From positions 1 to 59,412 of the IMG/VR virus record IMGVR_UViG_3300024520_000077: a stretch of 59,412 nt of DNA; one strand, 5' to 3'. Below the pieces are notes generated by a model. That model had not been told where the DNA came from, searched no databases, and saw only the letters and a list, made by a program, of their open reading frames with translations. The translations under genes were made by a program, and so were the position numbers. Shown in pieces: positions 37,996-53,634 of the stretch. Positions within the stretch are counted from its first letter, which is position 1; every line of letters begins with the position of its first letter. Origin of the DNA: a virus.

Positions 37996-38221
37996 GATAC
38001 TCCTCCAGGGTTAGCTGGCCGCCCGACGACGCCCCCGTGGAGGAGCTGCTAGAGCCTTGGCGACGCCGAGCGACCGAGAAGAGCGTACCACAGTCGCGAA
38101 CGAGTCGGGCCAAACGCGCGTCCCTCGCCGCTTCGGCCCTTGCCGCTTCGACGTTCTTCGCCTCGATCTCGGCCAGGTACTCGGCCCGACGCTCGCGGTA
38201 GAGCTTTCCAGGCGGGTTCAC
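37892..38221 (-). CDS. Small protein overlapping the lipoprotein gene
   Basis: GTG 38221 forms GTGA with the methyltransferase stop. 109 residues with charged coiled-coil start GKLYRERRAEYLAEIEAKNV and a serine/acidic linker. The last ~35 codons overlap the lipoprotein and read as an Arg/Gly-rich tail, so the functional part may end earlier. Unknown. Confidence 0.4.
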   Translation of the reverse strand: MNPPGKLYRERRAEYLAEIEAKNVEAARAEAARDARLARLVRDCGTLFSVARRRQGSSSSSTGASSGGQLTLEEYHDDEEGLTRPTAGIGPGAQRLPDHGSHRAALRGP

Positions 38222-40611
38222 GAGAAGAGACTCATCTGTGGATCTGGCGGCTTCGCGGAGTCCGGGGCGGTACCCCAGCCGCGGAGCATGTCGAGCGCCG
38301 GCCCTGGCCCCATCTCCGCGATCCGCCGGCGCCACCACGCCACCCGCGCCAGGGCGAGCTCACACATTTGTTCACTGCTTTCGATCGCTACGATTCGGCG
38401 CCACCCCGCCATCATGGCGGCGATGATCTCCGAGCCCGACCCGGCGAAGGGGATCAGGATCACCGGCTCGACGCCGTCGACCGTGGGCTGTAGGAGGAGC
38501 TTCGCCAGGTGGCTTCCGCCGTCGATGGCCTTGACGGCAAGTCCAGGATTGCCCCGGCAGCGTCCGGACTCGCGGGCCGCGTCGAGGAAGGCGGTAGCGT
38601 CTTCGTGGTCGACGTCGATCTCGCCTTCGCCGGGCCGTTTGTAGTGGTAATTACCCGGGCGGCCCAAATTGGCGAGCAAAGTTCCCCTAAGTGCTGGCTT
38701 GGCGCGTGGCTTCCGGTACCCCTCCGCCATCATCTCCCGATACCTCTCCGAGCCCATCGCCCGTGCCACGTCGTCGGCCCCACGCTGCTCGAAGGCGTCC
38801 TCGTCGACGAGGAGCCACCCGTCGTCGTGGTCGGCGTCGCGGATCCATAGGAGGTGCTCGGCGCCAGTGTGGCGCTCTGCGGCGGAGGCGCGGCCCTGGT
38901 AGTACACGCGGGCAGTACTTGGCCTCGCGTCCGTCTCGCCGAAGCGGTGGGCGGAGTGCGACGGCATGTTACCGTAGACCGGCGACGAAGACGCGTTGAT
39001 TGGCACGCGCTCACGCTTTCCGCCAGCGCTGTGTACGCCCTTCGCCCGGCCCTGCTCGTCGATCGCCGCCACAGGGCACCCATCCGCGCACCAGCCGGCC
39101 CCGCAGGTCGTCAAATGCTCGAAGATGACGGTGGACGGGTATCGGCCGAGGCTGTCTTTCGATGCATCCCGGGGCTTATGGCCCACTTTCGGGAGGTATG
39201 AAACGCTACTCCCCACTCGCTCTCTACCTCGACAATTCCGCTCATGGTCCGGCCCGCTCGGAATCCGCCCGCCGCCGACGTTGTACCCGCCCGTACCCCA
39301 CCGCTCAGCCACCTCCGCCCCGGTGCCGTCGAGGGGCTTGCGGGCGGCGAGGATGATCTCCTTGGAGTCCTTCAGCGCCGTGGCGTGGTCGTCGAAGAGG
39401 GCGGCGAGGGGCGAGGCCGGGGCGGTGATCGGCGACGGCTCATGAGCTAGCCCTCGAGCGTGATCGTAGTGCATGGAGCGCGACAACTGCGGCCGGGTCG
39501 CCGCCGCTTTGGTCACCTCCCGCTCGAGCCCCGCCGCCTTGTCGATCGCCTTCCCCGTGTTGGCCCCGAGCGCCATCGCGCCCCCGTGGATCCGCACGAT
39601 CGAGGGGAGCATGCGGAAGCCCGCCAGCTCTTGCGAGATCGCCGCCCAGTGGGACGCGCGGCCCTGGTAGGACAGGTGGATCGCCCCGGGGCGGAGGACG
39701 CGGAGGATCTCGCGATTGAGTCGAGGAGAGGGAACTAAGTTGTCCCACGGACGATTAAGCATACCACCCTGTGCTATACTGGGACGAAACAACCCGGAGG
39801 CTTTCCCGTGGCACAAAAGATCGAACGAACATGTCCCGTCTGCTCGACGACCTACCTTGCGGACCCCGGCCGGCTCAAGTGGGGCCGAGAGACCACCTGC
39901 TCGCGGGCCTGCTCCTACCGCTTTCGCGGCGATCAAAAGAGGAGCGCCGTCAGTCTTGAATGCTCCCTTTGCGGGAAGGAGTTCAAGCGCTGGCCGTCCC
40001 ACGCTGCGCGCGCAGAGTACGGCTGGCACTTTTGCTCCCGCGCCTGCAAAACCGCCGGCTGGCGGCTCGGCATGTTCACTATGGTCCGGCATGTGAAGTT
40101 CAACAAGCTGACACGAGAAGGGCGCACCTCGCTGCGCCGCGTGGGTGCGGAGGTCTACGCGTCTGGAAGCCTCGGTTTCCCGGAGGATGAACTGGCAACC
40201 GTTGAGCTTCTCCAGCGTGCCAGGGTGCCATTCATCCATCAACACATCTTCGAGGCGGGCGAGGACGTTTTCGTCGTCGACTTCTACTTCGCCGACCGGA
40301 ATCTCGTCATGGAAATCGACGGCTCCGGCCATCGACGAGACCCCGGGCAGCGTGCAAAGGATGCGAAGCGGGACAAGATCCTCGCGGATGCCGGGATCGA
40401 GGTCGTCCGAATCACCAACGAAGGGCCAGCGGATGAGGTCGCGAAGCGAGTCCTCGCCCATCTCATAGGTCCATAGGTCGATGAGCGCTTTCGGGTCTCG
40501 AAGGTCCGACAAAGCGTACGGCGGATCGCTCAGCCCCCCGTGGAACGTGTGCTCGTCGAATTCGTCCAGGGCGTCGGGCAGGGTGCCGCAGATGATGCGG
40601 ACGTCGATCAC
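38218..40611 (-). CDS. DNA methyltransferase (beta-class), interrupted
   Basis: From GTG 40611 (GTGA with the upstream stop). N-terminal motif IV: GGLSDPPYALSDLRDPKAL. Then ~240 codons, antisense to the endonuclease gene, carry no stop. The methyltransferase resumes with PWDNLVPSPRLNREILRVLR and ends with motif I IPFAGSGSEIIAAM and AIESSEQMCELALARV. In intact relatives the DPPY segment leads directly to WD...P...L.E..RVLRPG. An ATG at 39762 could start a split C-terminal product. Activity without excision or complementation is doubtful. Confidence 0.75.
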   Translation of the reverse strand: MIDVRIICGTLPDALDEFDEHTFHGGLSDPPYALSDLRDPKALIDLWTYEMGEDSLRDLIRWPFVGDSDDLDPGIREDLVPLRILCTLPGVSSMAGAVDFHDEIPVGEVEVDDENVLARLEDVLMDEWHPGTLEKLNGCQFILRETEASRRVDLRTHAAQRGAPFSCQLVELHMPDHSEHAEPPAGGFAGAGAKVPAVLCARSVGRPALELLPAKGAFKTDGAPLLIAAKAVGAGPRAGGLSAPLEPAGVRKVGRRADGTCSFDLLCHGKASGLFRPSIAQGGMLNRPWDNLVPSPRLNREILRVLRPGAIHLSYQGRASHWAAISQELAGFRMLPSIVRIHGGAMALGANTGKAIDKAAGLEREVTKAAATRPQLSRSMHYDHARGLAHEPSPITAPASPLAALFDDHATALKDSKEIILAARKPLDGTGAEVAERWGTGGYNVGGGRIPSGPDHERNCRGRERVGSSVSYLPKVGHKPRDASKDSLGRYPSTVIFEHLTTCGAGWCADGCPVAAIDEQGRAKGVHSAGGKRERVPINASSSPVYGNMPSHSAHRFGETDARPSTARVYYQGRASAAERHTGAEHLLWIRDADHDDGWLLVDEDAFEQRGADDVARAMGSERYREMMAEGYRKPRAKPALRGTLLANLGRPGNYHYKRPGEGEIDVDHEDATAFLDAARESGRCRGNPGLAVKAIDGGSHLAKLLLQPTVDGVEPVILIPFAGSGSEIIAAMMAGWRRIVAIESSEQMCELALARVAWWRRRIAEMGPGPALDMLRGWGTAPDSAKPPDPQMSLFS
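39763..40480. mobile_element. Inserted endonuclease element in a methyltransferase gene
   Basis: Approximate bounds of the stretch that separates the DPPY segment from the WD..VPS segment of the methyltransferase. It contains its own plus-strand gene with its own ribosome site, and no stop in the methyltransferase frame. It could be a homing-endonuclease insertion, an intron with an antisense ORF, or a tolerated in-frame insertion. Exact ends are uncertain by ~20 bases. Confidence 0.6.
39808..40476 (+). CDS. Vsr/EDxHD-like homing endonuclease with zinc knuckles
   Basis: 222 residues from GTG 39808, with GGAGG seven bases upstream. Two N-terminal zinc knuckles (CPVCSTTYLADPGRLKWGR then TTCSRAC; CSLCGKEF...FCSRAC). 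The C-terminal domain has FVVDFYFADRNLVMEIDGSG followed by H and AKDAKRDKILADAGIEVVRI, a DUF559/Vsr-like fold with acidic and histidine residues of an EDxHD-type active site. Encoded inside, and opposite to, a methyltransferase gene. Confidence 0.7.
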   Translation: MAQKIERTCPVCSTTYLADPGRLKWGRETTCSRACSYRFRGDQKRSAVSLECSLCGKEFKRWPSHAARAEYGWHFCSRACKTAGWRLGMFTMVRHVKFNKLTREGRTSLRRVGAEVYASGSLGFPEDELATVELLQRARVPFIHQHIFEAGEDVFVVDFYFADRNLVMEIDGSGHRRDPGQRAKDAKRDKILADAGIEVVRITNEGPADEVAKRVLAHLIGP

Positions 40612-40814
40612 TTGCGCCGCTCTTCGGCCTGCCGGCGCTCTTCGCCGGTCTCCGGGAAGTCCAGGGTCCCGAAAATGGTCTCGCCTTGCCCGTACATCTT
40701 GACCAGCCACCGCGTCAGGTCGTGCGCCGACGTCCTAGAGCCGGAGTAGCGCTCCATGGCGGCCTCGAGGTCGGCAGTGGGTATCGTGACTCGCTTCGTG
40801 TCGGTGCGGTTCAC
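40608..40814 (-). CDS. Small protein, 68 aa
   Basis: GTG 40814 overlaps the upstream stop and its TGA overlaps the methyltransferase GTG. It begins MNRTDTKRVTIPTADLEAAM and continues YSGSRTSAHDLTRWLVKMYG. A compact DNA-binding-like alpha fold is possible; unknown. Confidence 0.5.
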   Translation of the reverse strand: MNRTDTKRVTIPTADLEAAMERYSGSRTSAHDLTRWLVKMYGQGETIFGTLDFPETGEERRQAEERRK

Positions 40815-41143
40815 GACGAAGCCTCGTTTTCGTCTTTGGCCGCTCGCTTCTCGTCCGCGCCGGCCTGGGCGATCTTGACCCTTGACGCTGCCGAGAACGC
40901 CGCCATGAGGACCCGATCCGCTTCGCATATGATCCCTTTCCAGCACGACTGACCCATGGCGTCGACGTCGAGATACTCAAGATCAAGGCTCGCGCTCGCG
41001 AGCCCATCCTTGATTGGCTTGAAGTTCCAGGCCACGATCCTGTACCTCGGCGCTTCGTGGCCTGCGTGGCCCTCCCAGAGACTTACAGGCCCCGAAGGCA
41101 TGTCGCTCTCCGCGGTGTAATAGGTGAATCCATCAAGCGTCAT
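40811..41143 (-). CDS. Hypothetical protein, 110 aa
   Basis: ATG 41143, with AAAGGAG eight bases upstream, is preferred over ATG 41149. Begins MTLDGFTYYTAESDMPSGPV, with an aromatic-rich centre (APRYRIVAWNFKPIKDG) and an acidic/basic end. First gene after the promoter at 41214. Confidence 0.55.
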   Translation of the reverse strand: MTLDGFTYYTAESDMPSGPVSLWEGHAGHEAPRYRIVAWNFKPIKDGLASASLDLEYLDVDAMGQSCWKGIICEADRVLMAAFSAASRVKIAQAGADEKRAAKDENEASS

Positions 41144-43679: not shown

Positions 43680-43909
43680 GCGCACCTCGCGTGAATCGCC
43701 GGGCCGTGCTGGCCTCGGCATTTGTAGAATGGATCGTCGTAGCCGATCGGGTGGCCGCAGTTCACGGCCGCCATCTTGCGCGCCTCGTCGCATCGCTCGC
43801 GGCGGGAGCACCGGCAGGGAAGCGGCGAGCACGGGCCGAAGTCGGACCGCGGGGGCCAGACTTTCCACGGCTGCTTTCTCGCGGCTTGGCGGCGCTCTGA
43901 CAGCGTCAT
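43676..43909 (-). CDS. Small cysteine-rich protein, 77 aa
   Basis: ATG 43909 (ATGA). MTLSERRQAARKQPWKVWPP, then PCSPLPCRCSRRERC, with two more cysteines later (NCGHPIG, KCRGQH). A possible treble-clef zinc protein of the early operon. Function unknown. Confidence 0.5.
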   Translation of the reverse strand: MTLSERRQAARKQPWKVWPPRSDFGPCSPLPCRCSRRERCDEARKMAAVNCGHPIGYDDPFYKCRGQHGPAIHARCA

Positions 43910-45396
43910 TGTTCGACCTCCCTCGGCTCGGCATAGAGGCTCAGCTCGTAGCCGACGCCGTGGGCCTTCCGCCGAAGGTCGGCCTCCACCCCTGCCAGCC
44001 ACTCCTCGCGGGGCTCCTCGTATAGCCTTTGCGCGACGGGTCCAGCTCGGAGTTTCGCCATCTCGCTCACGGCAGCGCGCTCGGCGTCCTCCGGCAGCTC
44101 CCGAGCCACGAGACGCGCGTCGAGCTTCGCCAGCCCCGTCTCGATCGCCTCGGCCTCCCGGCCCTTGAGCTTGCGGATGAGCCCTGCCAGCGTGCCGAGG
44201 TCGTCCGGCAGGAAGGCGGCGAGGCGCTCGAGGCGCTCGTCGGTGTCGACGTCGGGCGGTGGCGGATGGTTCATAATCGCGTCGTTGTGCTCCTGGACGT
44301 ACGTACGCCGGCCCTGGCCGTTGCCGCTCGGCGGCGGGTAGGCGCTCCGGTCGTCCTGCCAGGGTTTGGCCTTGACGAACCGCGGCCCCTGCGGCAGGAA
44401 CTGTCCGCCGTCGGTGACGTAGACGTCGGCGCCAGTCTCTCGGAGGAAGTCCAGAAAGTCGACGACGTCGTCGGCGTTACGATCGTCCGGGGCGAGGGCC
44501 TTCCACCGCTTGAGGGCGGTCGATTTGTCCTTCTTCGCCTTGGGAGGCAGGAGGGGCCACCACCTGGCGAAGCCCTCGGCGATCGTCTCGCGGTGCGGCT
44601 CCGGATCCCCCGGATCGTCTCCGTCGATGTCAGCCCGGAAGTCGACGACACGTGCGGACCGGCCGTCCGCGGGCGGCTTCGCGCAAGAGTCCGTCTTCGG
44701 ACTCTCTGAAGGCAAGGAAGGCAAGGAAGGAGTGACGCCCTGTGACTCCGCGTGACTCCCCGTGACAGCTCGTGACGACGCGTGACTTTTTGTCACGTTG
44801 TGTGACTCCAGGGCCTCCTTAAGGGCTCCGGTAAACCGGAACCACTCCCCGGAGTGCCGATATTCCGCCCAGTCGTCGTGGATCTCGGCCTCCCTGCTCT
44901 TCCCTCCTGGGGTTTGCATGATGAGTGTCAGGGGCCGCCCTAGCGCTCGCGACAGCTCCCCCGTACGCCCGGCCAGGTGGGTGGTGTAGCCGATCTTGAC
45001 GAGGCCAGCCTCATCATCAAGGAGGAAGTAGACGATGGATATCGCTTTATCCCTTCGCCTGGCCCTCTCGTCGCGCTTGCGCTGGGCTCCGCTCATCGTC
45101 GCTTCCTCGCGGTCGAGGAACTCCGGGTCGGTCAACTTGTCGTCGCCCTCGACGAAAAAGCCGGCCGCCACCAGGGCGGGAACGGATCGCTCACAGACGG
45201 CGTCGGGTATCCCGGTCATCTCGGCCACTGCCTCCCACGGAAACAGCCCGTCGAGCGCCAGGCAGCCGGCGCGGTCGAGGTGGCGCAGGAGGAGCGCGTA
45301 GACGGCTTGGGCCTCCCACTTGAGGCGCTTCCAGGCGGCGGTGTCCTGCCTGTACAGACGGGCGTAAGGCGTGTTCGACCAGTCGAGCCCGCGCAT
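43906..45396 (-). CDS. Replication-initiator-like protein with inserted GIY-YIG-type domain
   Basis: 496 residues from ATG 45396 with AGGAAA upstream (GTG 45405 also in frame). The N-terminus (YRQDTAAWKRLKWEAQAVYA, then GIPDAVCERSVPALVAAGFF) is a winged-helix replication-protein pattern. Residues ~119-197 contain SIVYFLLDDEAGLVKIGYTT and ALESHNV after GEWFRFTGALK, the T5orf172/GIY-YIG-like signature. The C-terminal half holds a DnaD-like region (ARWWPLLPPKAKKDKSTALK). A nuclease-type insertion in a replication-type protein is unusual. The replication role is inferred. Confidence 0.6.
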   Translation of the reverse strand: MRGLDWSNTPYARLYRQDTAAWKRLKWEAQAVYALLLRHLDRAGCLALDGLFPWEAVAEMTGIPDAVCERSVPALVAAGFFVEGDDKLTDPEFLDREEATMSGAQRKRDERARRRDKAISIVYFLLDDEAGLVKIGYTTHLAGRTGELSRALGRPLTLIMQTPGGKSREAEIHDDWAEYRHSGEWFRFTGALKEALESHNVTKSHASSRAVTGSHAESQGVTPSLPSLPSESPKTDSCAKPPADGRSARVVDFRADIDGDDPGDPEPHRETIAEGFARWWPLLPPKAKKDKSTALKRWKALAPDDRNADDVVDFLDFLRETGADVYVTDGGQFLPQGPRFVKAKPWQDDRSAYPPPSGNGQGRRTYVQEHNDAIMNHPPPPDVDTDERLERLAAFLPDDLGTLAGLIRKLKGREAEAIETGLAKLDARLVARELPEDAERAAVSEMAKLRAGPVAQRLYEEPREEWLAGVEADLRRKAHGVGYELSLYAEPREVEQ

Positions 45397-45397
45397 C

Positions 45398-45577
45398 TCA
45401 TGCACTTTCCTGCGCCGGCCGCTCTATCAGCTCGGCCGCCAGGTAGCGGACGAGCGCCGTCCGAACCTCGGCGGCCTCCGACGTCGGCTCGCCTCGCTCC
45501 CGCTTGAGATCGACGAGCATCTCCAGGTCGGCGATGGTCTTCTCGGTCAGTCTAAAAAGCTTCGGTCTCATGTCCAT
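45398..45577 (-). CDS. Small ribbon-helix-helix-like protein, 59 aa
   Basis: ATG 45577 is six bases after a TAGCGT -10 box, so leaderless. RPKLFRLTEKTIADLEMLVD then LKRERGEPTSEAAEVRTALV fits a ribbon-helix-helix DNA-binding fold. It starts the early replication operon, so it is a likely regulator. Confidence 0.6.
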   Translation of the reverse strand: MDMRPKLFRLTEKTIADLEMLVDLKRERGEPTSEAAEVRTALVRYLAAELIERPAQESA

Positions 45578-52262: not shown

Positions 52263-53225
52263 CTACCCCTCGATCGTCATCTGCTCAGGCGGCGCCACCG
52301 CGGTCGGCGGCTCGAAGAGGATGCGCTGTGCGTACCGGTCGACGGCGATCTGCTGGGCTACGTCGATCCAGAGGTCGCCATGACCGGGCAGCGGTCGGCC
52401 TTTCTCGTCCCGTCGATCACGCGCCAGGAGGTCACCGCCGAAGAACCGCCGGCCGTGGTCGAGGGCGGCGACGAGGGACGTCCCAGAGCCGAGGAAGGGG
52501 TCAACGACGAGGTCGCCTGGGTTCGAGAAGCACAGGACGACGTCGCGGGCGAGGCGGTAGGGGAAGCGGGCCGGGTGGTTCTCGTTCTCCGTTGGACCAC
52601 CGCCGCCCTTGCTCACGTTCCCGTAGGCCCAAAGCGTCGAGGGCAGGACGTAATCAGCGACCGGCGAGGTAGAAGACCGATTCCTTCTGCCGTGGCCGTT
52701 CGCGCGACGCTGGCCACCTTTTCCGCCTACGGTCGTCCGATTGCTGGTCGTCGTTCTTTTCTCCGCGATTGCGGCAGAGTTCACCGAGATATCTCCTGGC
52801 GTCGAGAACCAGAGCATCGGCTCCCATGCCGACTTGAAGCCGCGAGGGAAAGCTCCCGGGCTCGTCTGCTTGCCGTATGCCAGGACGTCGGGGCACACCA
52901 GCCCGAGCCGGTCTTTCCAGTCGAGCAGCACGCGCCAGGGCATGACCGACCGCTCGGTGTACCCGTCCCCGCGGTAGTCCCTCACGGGGCCGTCAAGGAC
53001 GCACAGACACTGACCGCCGTCGGGCCGGAGGGCTCGCTTGACGGAGTTCCCGAGGCGCTGGTAGTCCTCGAGCGTCCAGTCCTTCCCCTCGGCCTCGCCG
53101 TACGTCCTGGCGACTCCGGGGTAGGGCGGGCTCATCAGGATGAGATCGGCCTTGCCCTCGACCTCGCCCAGGGTGTCGGCGTAGTCGGCTTGACGGAGGC
53201 CGACAAGGAGGTCGAGGGGGTTCAT
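52263..53225 (-). CDS. DNA methyltransferase B (beta-class, SPPY motif)
   Basis: 320 residues from ATG 53225. MSPPYPGVARTYGEAEGKDW contains motif IV; DPFLGSGTSLVAALDHGRRF motif I near the C-terminus. Shares the first ~110 and last ~80 residues with methyltransferase A (3751-4689), but the centre, including SPVADYVLPSTLWAYGNV, is different. The pair suggests swapping of specificity domains. Confidence 0.85.
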   Translation of the reverse strand: MNPLDLLVGLRQADYADTLGEVEGKADLILMSPPYPGVARTYGEAEGKDWTLEDYQRLGNSVKRALRPDGGQCLCVLDGPVRDYRGDGYTERSVMPWRVLLDWKDRLGLVCPDVLAYGKQTSPGAFPRGFKSAWEPMLWFSTPGDISVNSAAIAEKRTTTSNRTTVGGKGGQRRANGHGRRNRSSTSPVADYVLPSTLWAYGNVSKGGGGPTENENHPARFPYRLARDVVLCFSNPGDLVVDPFLGSGTSLVAALDHGRRFFGGDLLARDRRDEKGRPLPGHGDLWIDVAQQIAVDRYAQRILFEPPTAVAPPEQMTIEG

Positions 53226-53229
53226 GCCG

Positions 53230-53634
53230 TCAGATGCAATCGGCGAGCGTGGGGCCGCCCGTCTGCGCCCAGTCGACCGGCCAGAAGAATCCCACCCGGT
53301 CGGCCTCCAGCGTGGCGAAGACGTAGACACCGGGAGCCAGGCGGGTGCATGACCGCTCGACGCCGTCCTCGCCGACGACGTAGCCGACCAGGTCGACACC
53401 GGTCGAGGTGCGGATGGTGATCTCGTAGCGCGCCGGCGAGCCTTCCTCGAAGGACAGGTCGGTCGGGAGGGTGAGCGTCACGTCACCGGCGAGGATGGCG
53501 ACGTCCTCACAGGCGAACGTGGCGTAGGTGGTGTCGACGTCGGGCCGGAGGGTGCAGGCCGGGTCAGGCTGGGCGGCGACCGGCAGGGCCATGACCAGGG
53601 CGAGGGCGGAGAGGGCGATCAGAGTCTTCTTCAT
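53230..53634 (-). CDS. Exported protein, 134 aa
   Basis: Signal peptide MKKTLIALSALALVMALPVA then AQPDP. ATG 53634 has AAAGGAG upstream. Mature part with four cysteines (DPACTLRP, FACEDV, RSCTRL, ADCI) and beta strands DVTLTLPTDLSFEEG. Secreted or periplasmic, function unknown. Confidence 0.6.
   Translation of the reverse strand: MKKTLIALSALALVMALPVAAQPDPACTLRPDVDTTYATFACEDVAILAGDVTLTLPTDLSFEEGSPARYEITIRTSTGVDLVGYVVGEDGVERSCTRLAPGVYVFATLEADRVGFFWPVDWAQTGGPTLADCI

Follow-up and report, generated by a model that had tools for sequence, protein, structure and literature searches.

A gene for an EDxHD-type homing endonuclease has, most probably, entered a phage DNA methyltransferase (MTase) gene in antisense orientation, at a loop of variable length, and sits there unspliced. 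We analyzed a whole IMG/VR virus record of 59,412 bases, a single metagenomic contig with a GC content of 66% (hereafter the window), which carries the tailed-phage genes for portal, large and small terminase, and tape measure proteins. An earlier note, made from the sequence alone, had described an MTase gene that harbors an opposite-strand endonuclease and keeps a stop-free frame. This arrangement is borne out: the MTase frame is open from end to end, the DPPY, WDNLVPSP, and FAGSGS blocks are present, and the endonuclease is Vsr/EDxHD-like with a GGAGG site of its own, as the note had read it (Table 1).

Table 1 Features of the interrupted MTase gene and of the endonuclease on its opposite strand (positions in the window)
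Feature	Position	Strand	Basis
Interrupted beta-type (motif order IV...I) N6/N4 DNA MTase ORF, 797 codons, stop-free through the insert	38218..40611	-	Homology, motifs
MTase N-terminal part, codons 1-54, ending ...DPPYALSDLRDPKALIDLWTYEMGED	40450..40611	-	Motifs and profile join
DPPY motif	40516-40527	-	Sequence
MTase C-terminal part, SIAQGGMLNRPWDNLVPSP..., target-recognition region	38218..39780	-	Alignment of relatives
WDNLVPSP block of the MTase	39724-39747	-	Sequence
Motif I (FAGSGS) of the MTase	38431-38448	-	Sequence
Inferred insert, ~669 bp, 223 codons in the MTase frame	39781..40449		Flank-join scan; absent in relatives
Endonuclease of 222 aa with two CxxC...CxxxC zinc fingers followed by a Vsr-like EDxHD/DUF559 nuclease domain	39808..40476	+	Pfam, PHROG, alignment, fold
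Ribosome-binding site (GGAGG), 7 nt upstream of the endonuclease GTG start	39796..39800	+	Sequence
Putative extended -10 element (TGCTATACT) on the MTase side of the left junction	39772..39780	+	Weak, inference
Stop codon (TAG) of the endonuclease, MTase-derived provided that the junction is placed correctly	40474..40476	+	Flank-join scan

Judged by homology and by the placement of its motifs (DPPY N-terminal, FAGSGS C-terminal), the interrupted ORF is a beta-type N6/N4 DNA MTase. It starts with a GTG at 40611 and shares the sequence GTGA with the ORF upstream of it (40608-40946). When the C-terminal part was used as a tblastn query, 257 phage records matched, many of them annotated as DNA methylases, and the motif order of the family is apparent in an alignment of the window MTase with 31 full-length IMG/VR relatives. 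A Pfam scan of the window MTase returned no match because this copy is divergent. Near relatives of the phage were not recovered from IMG/VR and GTDB genomes with exact MTase, endonuclease, and portal peptides, nor with a degenerate PWDNLVPxP DNA pattern, and these same searches yielded no close empty-site relative. Elsewhere, the window encodes a second N6/N4 DNA methylase (52263-53399, minus strand; PF01555, E 5.5e-25, MSPPYPG motif) and a replication-initiation/primosomal-like protein (43906-45405, minus strand) with an internal MUG113/T5orf172 (GIY-YIG-type) domain at approximately residues 117-198.

The interruption falls into the loop that follows DPPY, which occurs in two length types among the MTase relatives: a short one (DPPYGLSFMGKxWD) and a long one (DPPYGLSKEPDMAEVLRHWLAGDDYQHKGGGFMGKxWD). 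The window MTase belongs to the long type, with 14 residues between the Y of DPPY and the W of the loop, the commonest long-type spacing. At the insertion point itself, the relatives carry 0-30 residues. An insert of the window's size is absent between the DPP motif and FMxxxWD in 78 of 80 IMG/VR MTase relatives, a count confined to the IMG/VR set, separate from 378 matched phage records. Five of those relatives show motif variants (DPPA or DPPS in L010, L025, L027, and L071; DGPY in L037). The remaining two have an aberrant sequence, which may stem from a frameshift, decay, or another insertion, and were counted neither as insert-free nor as insertions: in L013 a stop directly precedes PYGLSFM, and in L060 the DPP motif is missing upstream of FMxxxWD. 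The earlier note had named homologues that carry the 240-residue segment as a genuine domain as evidence against its reading; instead, the relatives have those 0-30 residues, and the insert translated in the MTase frame matches no phage sequence.

As no close empty-site relative was found, the junctions had to be inferred. We joined the flanks over a grid of positions and scored each join against a profile HMM of the long-type N-terminal region. The best joins reach 65.8 bits and remove 669 bp, for example 39781-40449, giving ...LWTYEMGED/SIAQGGMLNRPWDNLVPSP (slash, join), compared with 46.6 bits for the alternative join DPPYALS/MLNRPWD. Neighboring joins score within 1-2 bits, and the insert ends are therefore placed only to ~10-20 bp. 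The insert thus comes out shorter than the ~710 bases proposed before, and it adds 223 open codons rather than ~240. After the best join, the loop spans 28 residues, against 27-30 in long-type relatives. A right junction directly after DPPYALS was dropped, since long-type relatives have native loop sequence at that point. No repeats of note were found at either insert end. An assembly chimera or misassembly, to which a single metagenomic contig with no near relative might be prone, is very unlikely: joining the flanks restores a near-native loop in frame, which argues against an assembly error, if without excluding it, and a parallel arrangement occurs in isolated phages (see below).

The earlier note had weighed an antisense homing element, an intron with an opposite-strand ORF, and a tolerated in-frame insertion. 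The first and third of these are jointly supported, and the intron is not. Antisense endonuclease ORFs are known from eukaryotic group I introns (I-DirII; PMC3073962), which lends a self-splicing element carrying such a gene some precedent, but no Rfam intron matched within 38000-41000 even at E<=5, and only ~27 nt of the insert lie outside the endonuclease ORF. Likewise, no Hint splicing domain was detected in the insert, whose translation in the MTase frame (39784-40452, minus strand) matches no Pfam family, which speaks against an intein. Taken together, an intron or intein is exceedingly improbable. A weak Rfam match to Actino-ugpB RNA at 39391-39450 (plus strand; 25.8 bits, gathering score 42.5) is probably due to chance.

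The antisense gene itself has the features of an EDxHD-type homing endonuclease, both by sequence and by modeled fold, and is predicted to cut DNA. Pfam assigns DUF559 (E 1.7e-9), and the PHROG matches are HNH-endonuclease families. In a 31-sequence alignment, the catalytic residues E126, D158, E169, D171, H175, and D185 are intact, as are eight zinc-finger cysteines. E126, D158, D171, and D185 are invariant across the 31 aligned relatives and the cysteines nearly so, while the H175 column holds H in 22 and W in 9 of them; these W cases are at least partly of a YWH type with the H one column later. The AlphaFold2 model (mean pLDDT 80) finds the catalytic domain of I-Bth0305I (3r3p) as its top Foldseek match in the PDB (E 6e-4, TM 0.73 on the target), followed by PvuRts1I and Vsr, with 1cw0 at rank 4. 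The GC3 of the gene (0.75) is below that of the MTase parts. A sigma-70 scan detected no match, and hence no standard promoter, for the endonuclease. With the best junction placement, 27 nt of the insert precede the ORF, and the final 27 nt of the ORF, with the stop codon among them, fall into target DNA. This MTase is present within the fetched flanks of only 2 of 80 IMG/VR endonuclease relatives (L130 and L131), and the link to this MTase is therefore not general in the endonuclease family. The MTase of L131 appears to be interrupted twice, once by a ~1 kb gap in its N-terminal half, which may correspond to the known intein, and once by the antisense endonuclease.

Does the open frame through the insert speak for selection? 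The MTase frame runs codon-for-codon antisense to the endonuclease; a stop can therefore arise in it only opposite a TTA, CTA, or TCA codon in the latter. The endonuclease contains none of these, and such codons are rare in this GC-rich phage. When sequences were simulated with the codon usage of the phage, 22% kept the frame open, and so did 11% of 669-nt stretches taken from its actual genes, both values being conditional on the phase, which contributes a further factor of ~1/3. The open frame is thus weak evidence, and we dropped it as a sign of selection after the codon-usage simulation. A bolder proposal is that the DNA is doubly coding, with the endonuclease kept free of TTA, CTA, and TCA so that its reverse complement serves as a translatable, harmless linker in a working enzyme, and with the stop (perhaps also the promoter) borrowed from the target gene. 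We regard this as rather unlikely; if true, the element would be self-masking in the protein product, with no splicing involved.

The insertion as such is well supported. In the reading that we favor, a selfish EDxHD homing endonuclease gene would have entered the DNA coding for the loop after DPPY, antisense and without intron or intein. The endonuclease would cut the uninterrupted MTase region in co-infecting phages, and repair would copy the gene in. Such an insertion would add 223 stop-free codons to the MTase frame at a loop of naturally 0 to 30 residues. As the insert is stop-free and the loop length-variable, the MTase should still be translatable into a single protein of 797 aa that includes a disordered loop of ~223 residues. 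The endonuclease would be translated from its own ribosome-binding site and would take its last 8 codons and stop (perhaps also the -10 element) from the target gene.

Whether the MTase tolerates the insert is, in our estimate, an evenly balanced matter. The same homing insertion may instead have inactivated the MTase in a recent knock-out, the frame having stayed open by chance, a reading that we consider possible, though we lean against it. An open frame is expected by chance in the above 11-22% of cases, the insert adjoins the catalytic DPPY, the window holds a second N6/N4 MTase, and the methylase of phage ShiLan has been argued to be non-essential (PMC11855218). In addition, the window MTase is unusually divergent: it differs at 51 of 112 near-invariant columns (46%), compared with 0-12 (0-11%) in relatives, a contrast partly exaggerated by a comparison set picked for conserved patterns. 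This high divergence could mean decay of the MTase rather than tolerance. Against a knock-out, ~574 MTase codons are free of stops and frameshifts, DPPY and FAGSGS are kept, and codon-position GC is normal, the MTase parts sharing their codon-position composition with the phage's other genes. Moreover, the MTase halves of mycobacteriophages persist even after deletion of the endonuclease. An AlphaFold2 model of the 797-aa ORF shows parts of the MTase core at high confidence and residues 57-286 below pLDDT 50; its best PDB matches are DNA methylases, though weak ones.

The C-terminal part might also be made from its own start (ATG at 39762) and work together with an N-terminal fragment; Aeh1 nrdA is a case of this kind, and the mycobacteriophage halves may be another. 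The conserved block opens precisely with this ATG, and the mycobacteriophage MTases are separate ORFs. However, no well-spaced Shine-Dalgarno sequence precedes 39762, and the N-terminal fragment has no stop, so that no free fragment would be made; production of the enzyme in pieces is thus distinctly unlikely.

Support for an antisense homing insertion comes from mycobacteriophages, where relatives of the endonuclease are found on the opposite strand of MTase genes from the same family, flanked by ...KAPGAERPS and VKPLxLMRWLVRLVTPP. In a DNA alignment of seven loci (L090, L091, L092, L176, L177, L178, and L006), the site is uninterrupted in Xula (the one such phage checked) and occupied in Fishburne, Seagreen, and Camster. 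An internally deleted remnant is left in Brusacoram, Jebeks, and ShiLan, with the MTase still split. By tblastn, the whole endonuclease gene is found in 17 mycobacteriophage records and its C-terminal end only in 65, of which the Brusacoram, Jebeks, and ShiLan remnants are those that were aligned. Fishburne, Seagreen, Camster, Malithi, and others share with the window a zinc-finger and Vsr-like nuclease antisense to this MTase family. In contrast to the window, their insertion site lies between ERPS and VKPL, their MTase is broken into separate ORFs, and many relatives retain just the C-terminal end of the endonuclease; identity to the window endonuclease is ~26%. The series of uninterrupted, occupied, and deleted sites offers a culturable test system. 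Fishburne gp58 and Camster gp55 (L091 2300-3088; L090 2300-3088) are annotated opposite the endonuclease strand and look like wrong-strand calls, and in KilKor no gene is listed under the endonuclease match. For annotation, the antisense frame of such an endonuclease gene may be called as a hypothetical protein on the host strand.

Among known systems, I-Bth0305I, an example of group I intron endonucleases (PMC3943268), shares the catalytic domain fold and residues with the window endonuclease, which differs in having no recognizable intron, an antisense orientation, and two zinc fingers. Homing endonucleases that split phage genes, such as Aeh1 mobE in nrdA and T4 mobA in gene 60 (PMC2988022), are likewise free-standing and located in a phage gene, within a region critical to function. 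Unlike the antisense EDxHD enzyme in one open frame of the window, however, they are HNH endonucleases and divide their host gene into separate coding regions; the window host gene is not split into separate ORFs as genes-in-pieces are.

Of the published elements, the ShiLan domain comes closest (PMC11855218, PMC9957025). It is inserted in frame into the same methylase family, brings neither stops nor detectable splicing signals, and conceals an HNH endonuclease that is encoded out of frame on the same strand; its authors, too, suggest that the methylase accommodates the insert as a loop. In both cases, an endonuclease with zinc fingers and a GTG start lies in a stop-free, in-frame methylase insertion with no splicing signals, and ShiLan gp65 shares the DPPYGLEFMGKxWD...KAIDKAAG blocks with the window MTase family. 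The two differ in strand and nuclease type (same-strand, out-of-frame HNH versus antisense DUF559/EDxHD), in site (the ...VAVKPYG/...AFEPIVV region versus the loop after DPPY), and in the ribosome-binding site, none being detectable in ShiLan while the window has its own GGAGG. Neither 'antisense' nor 'opposite' occurs in the main text of PMC11855218, and a search of PMC9957025 for 'opposite' alone gave no hit; our survey covered the open-licence literature and may thus have missed a previous description of an antisense insertion. If the window MTase does tolerate its insert, mobile endonucleases need no intron or intein to reside inside an enzyme gene. In conclusion, the window extends the recently described hidden-endonuclease insertions from a same-strand HNH to an antisense EDxHD enzyme. 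The sites of the two differ within one methylase family, in which at least four insertion sites are now known: those of the intein, the ShiLan HNH, the mycobacteriophage antisense Vsr type, and the antisense EDxHD endonuclease described here.
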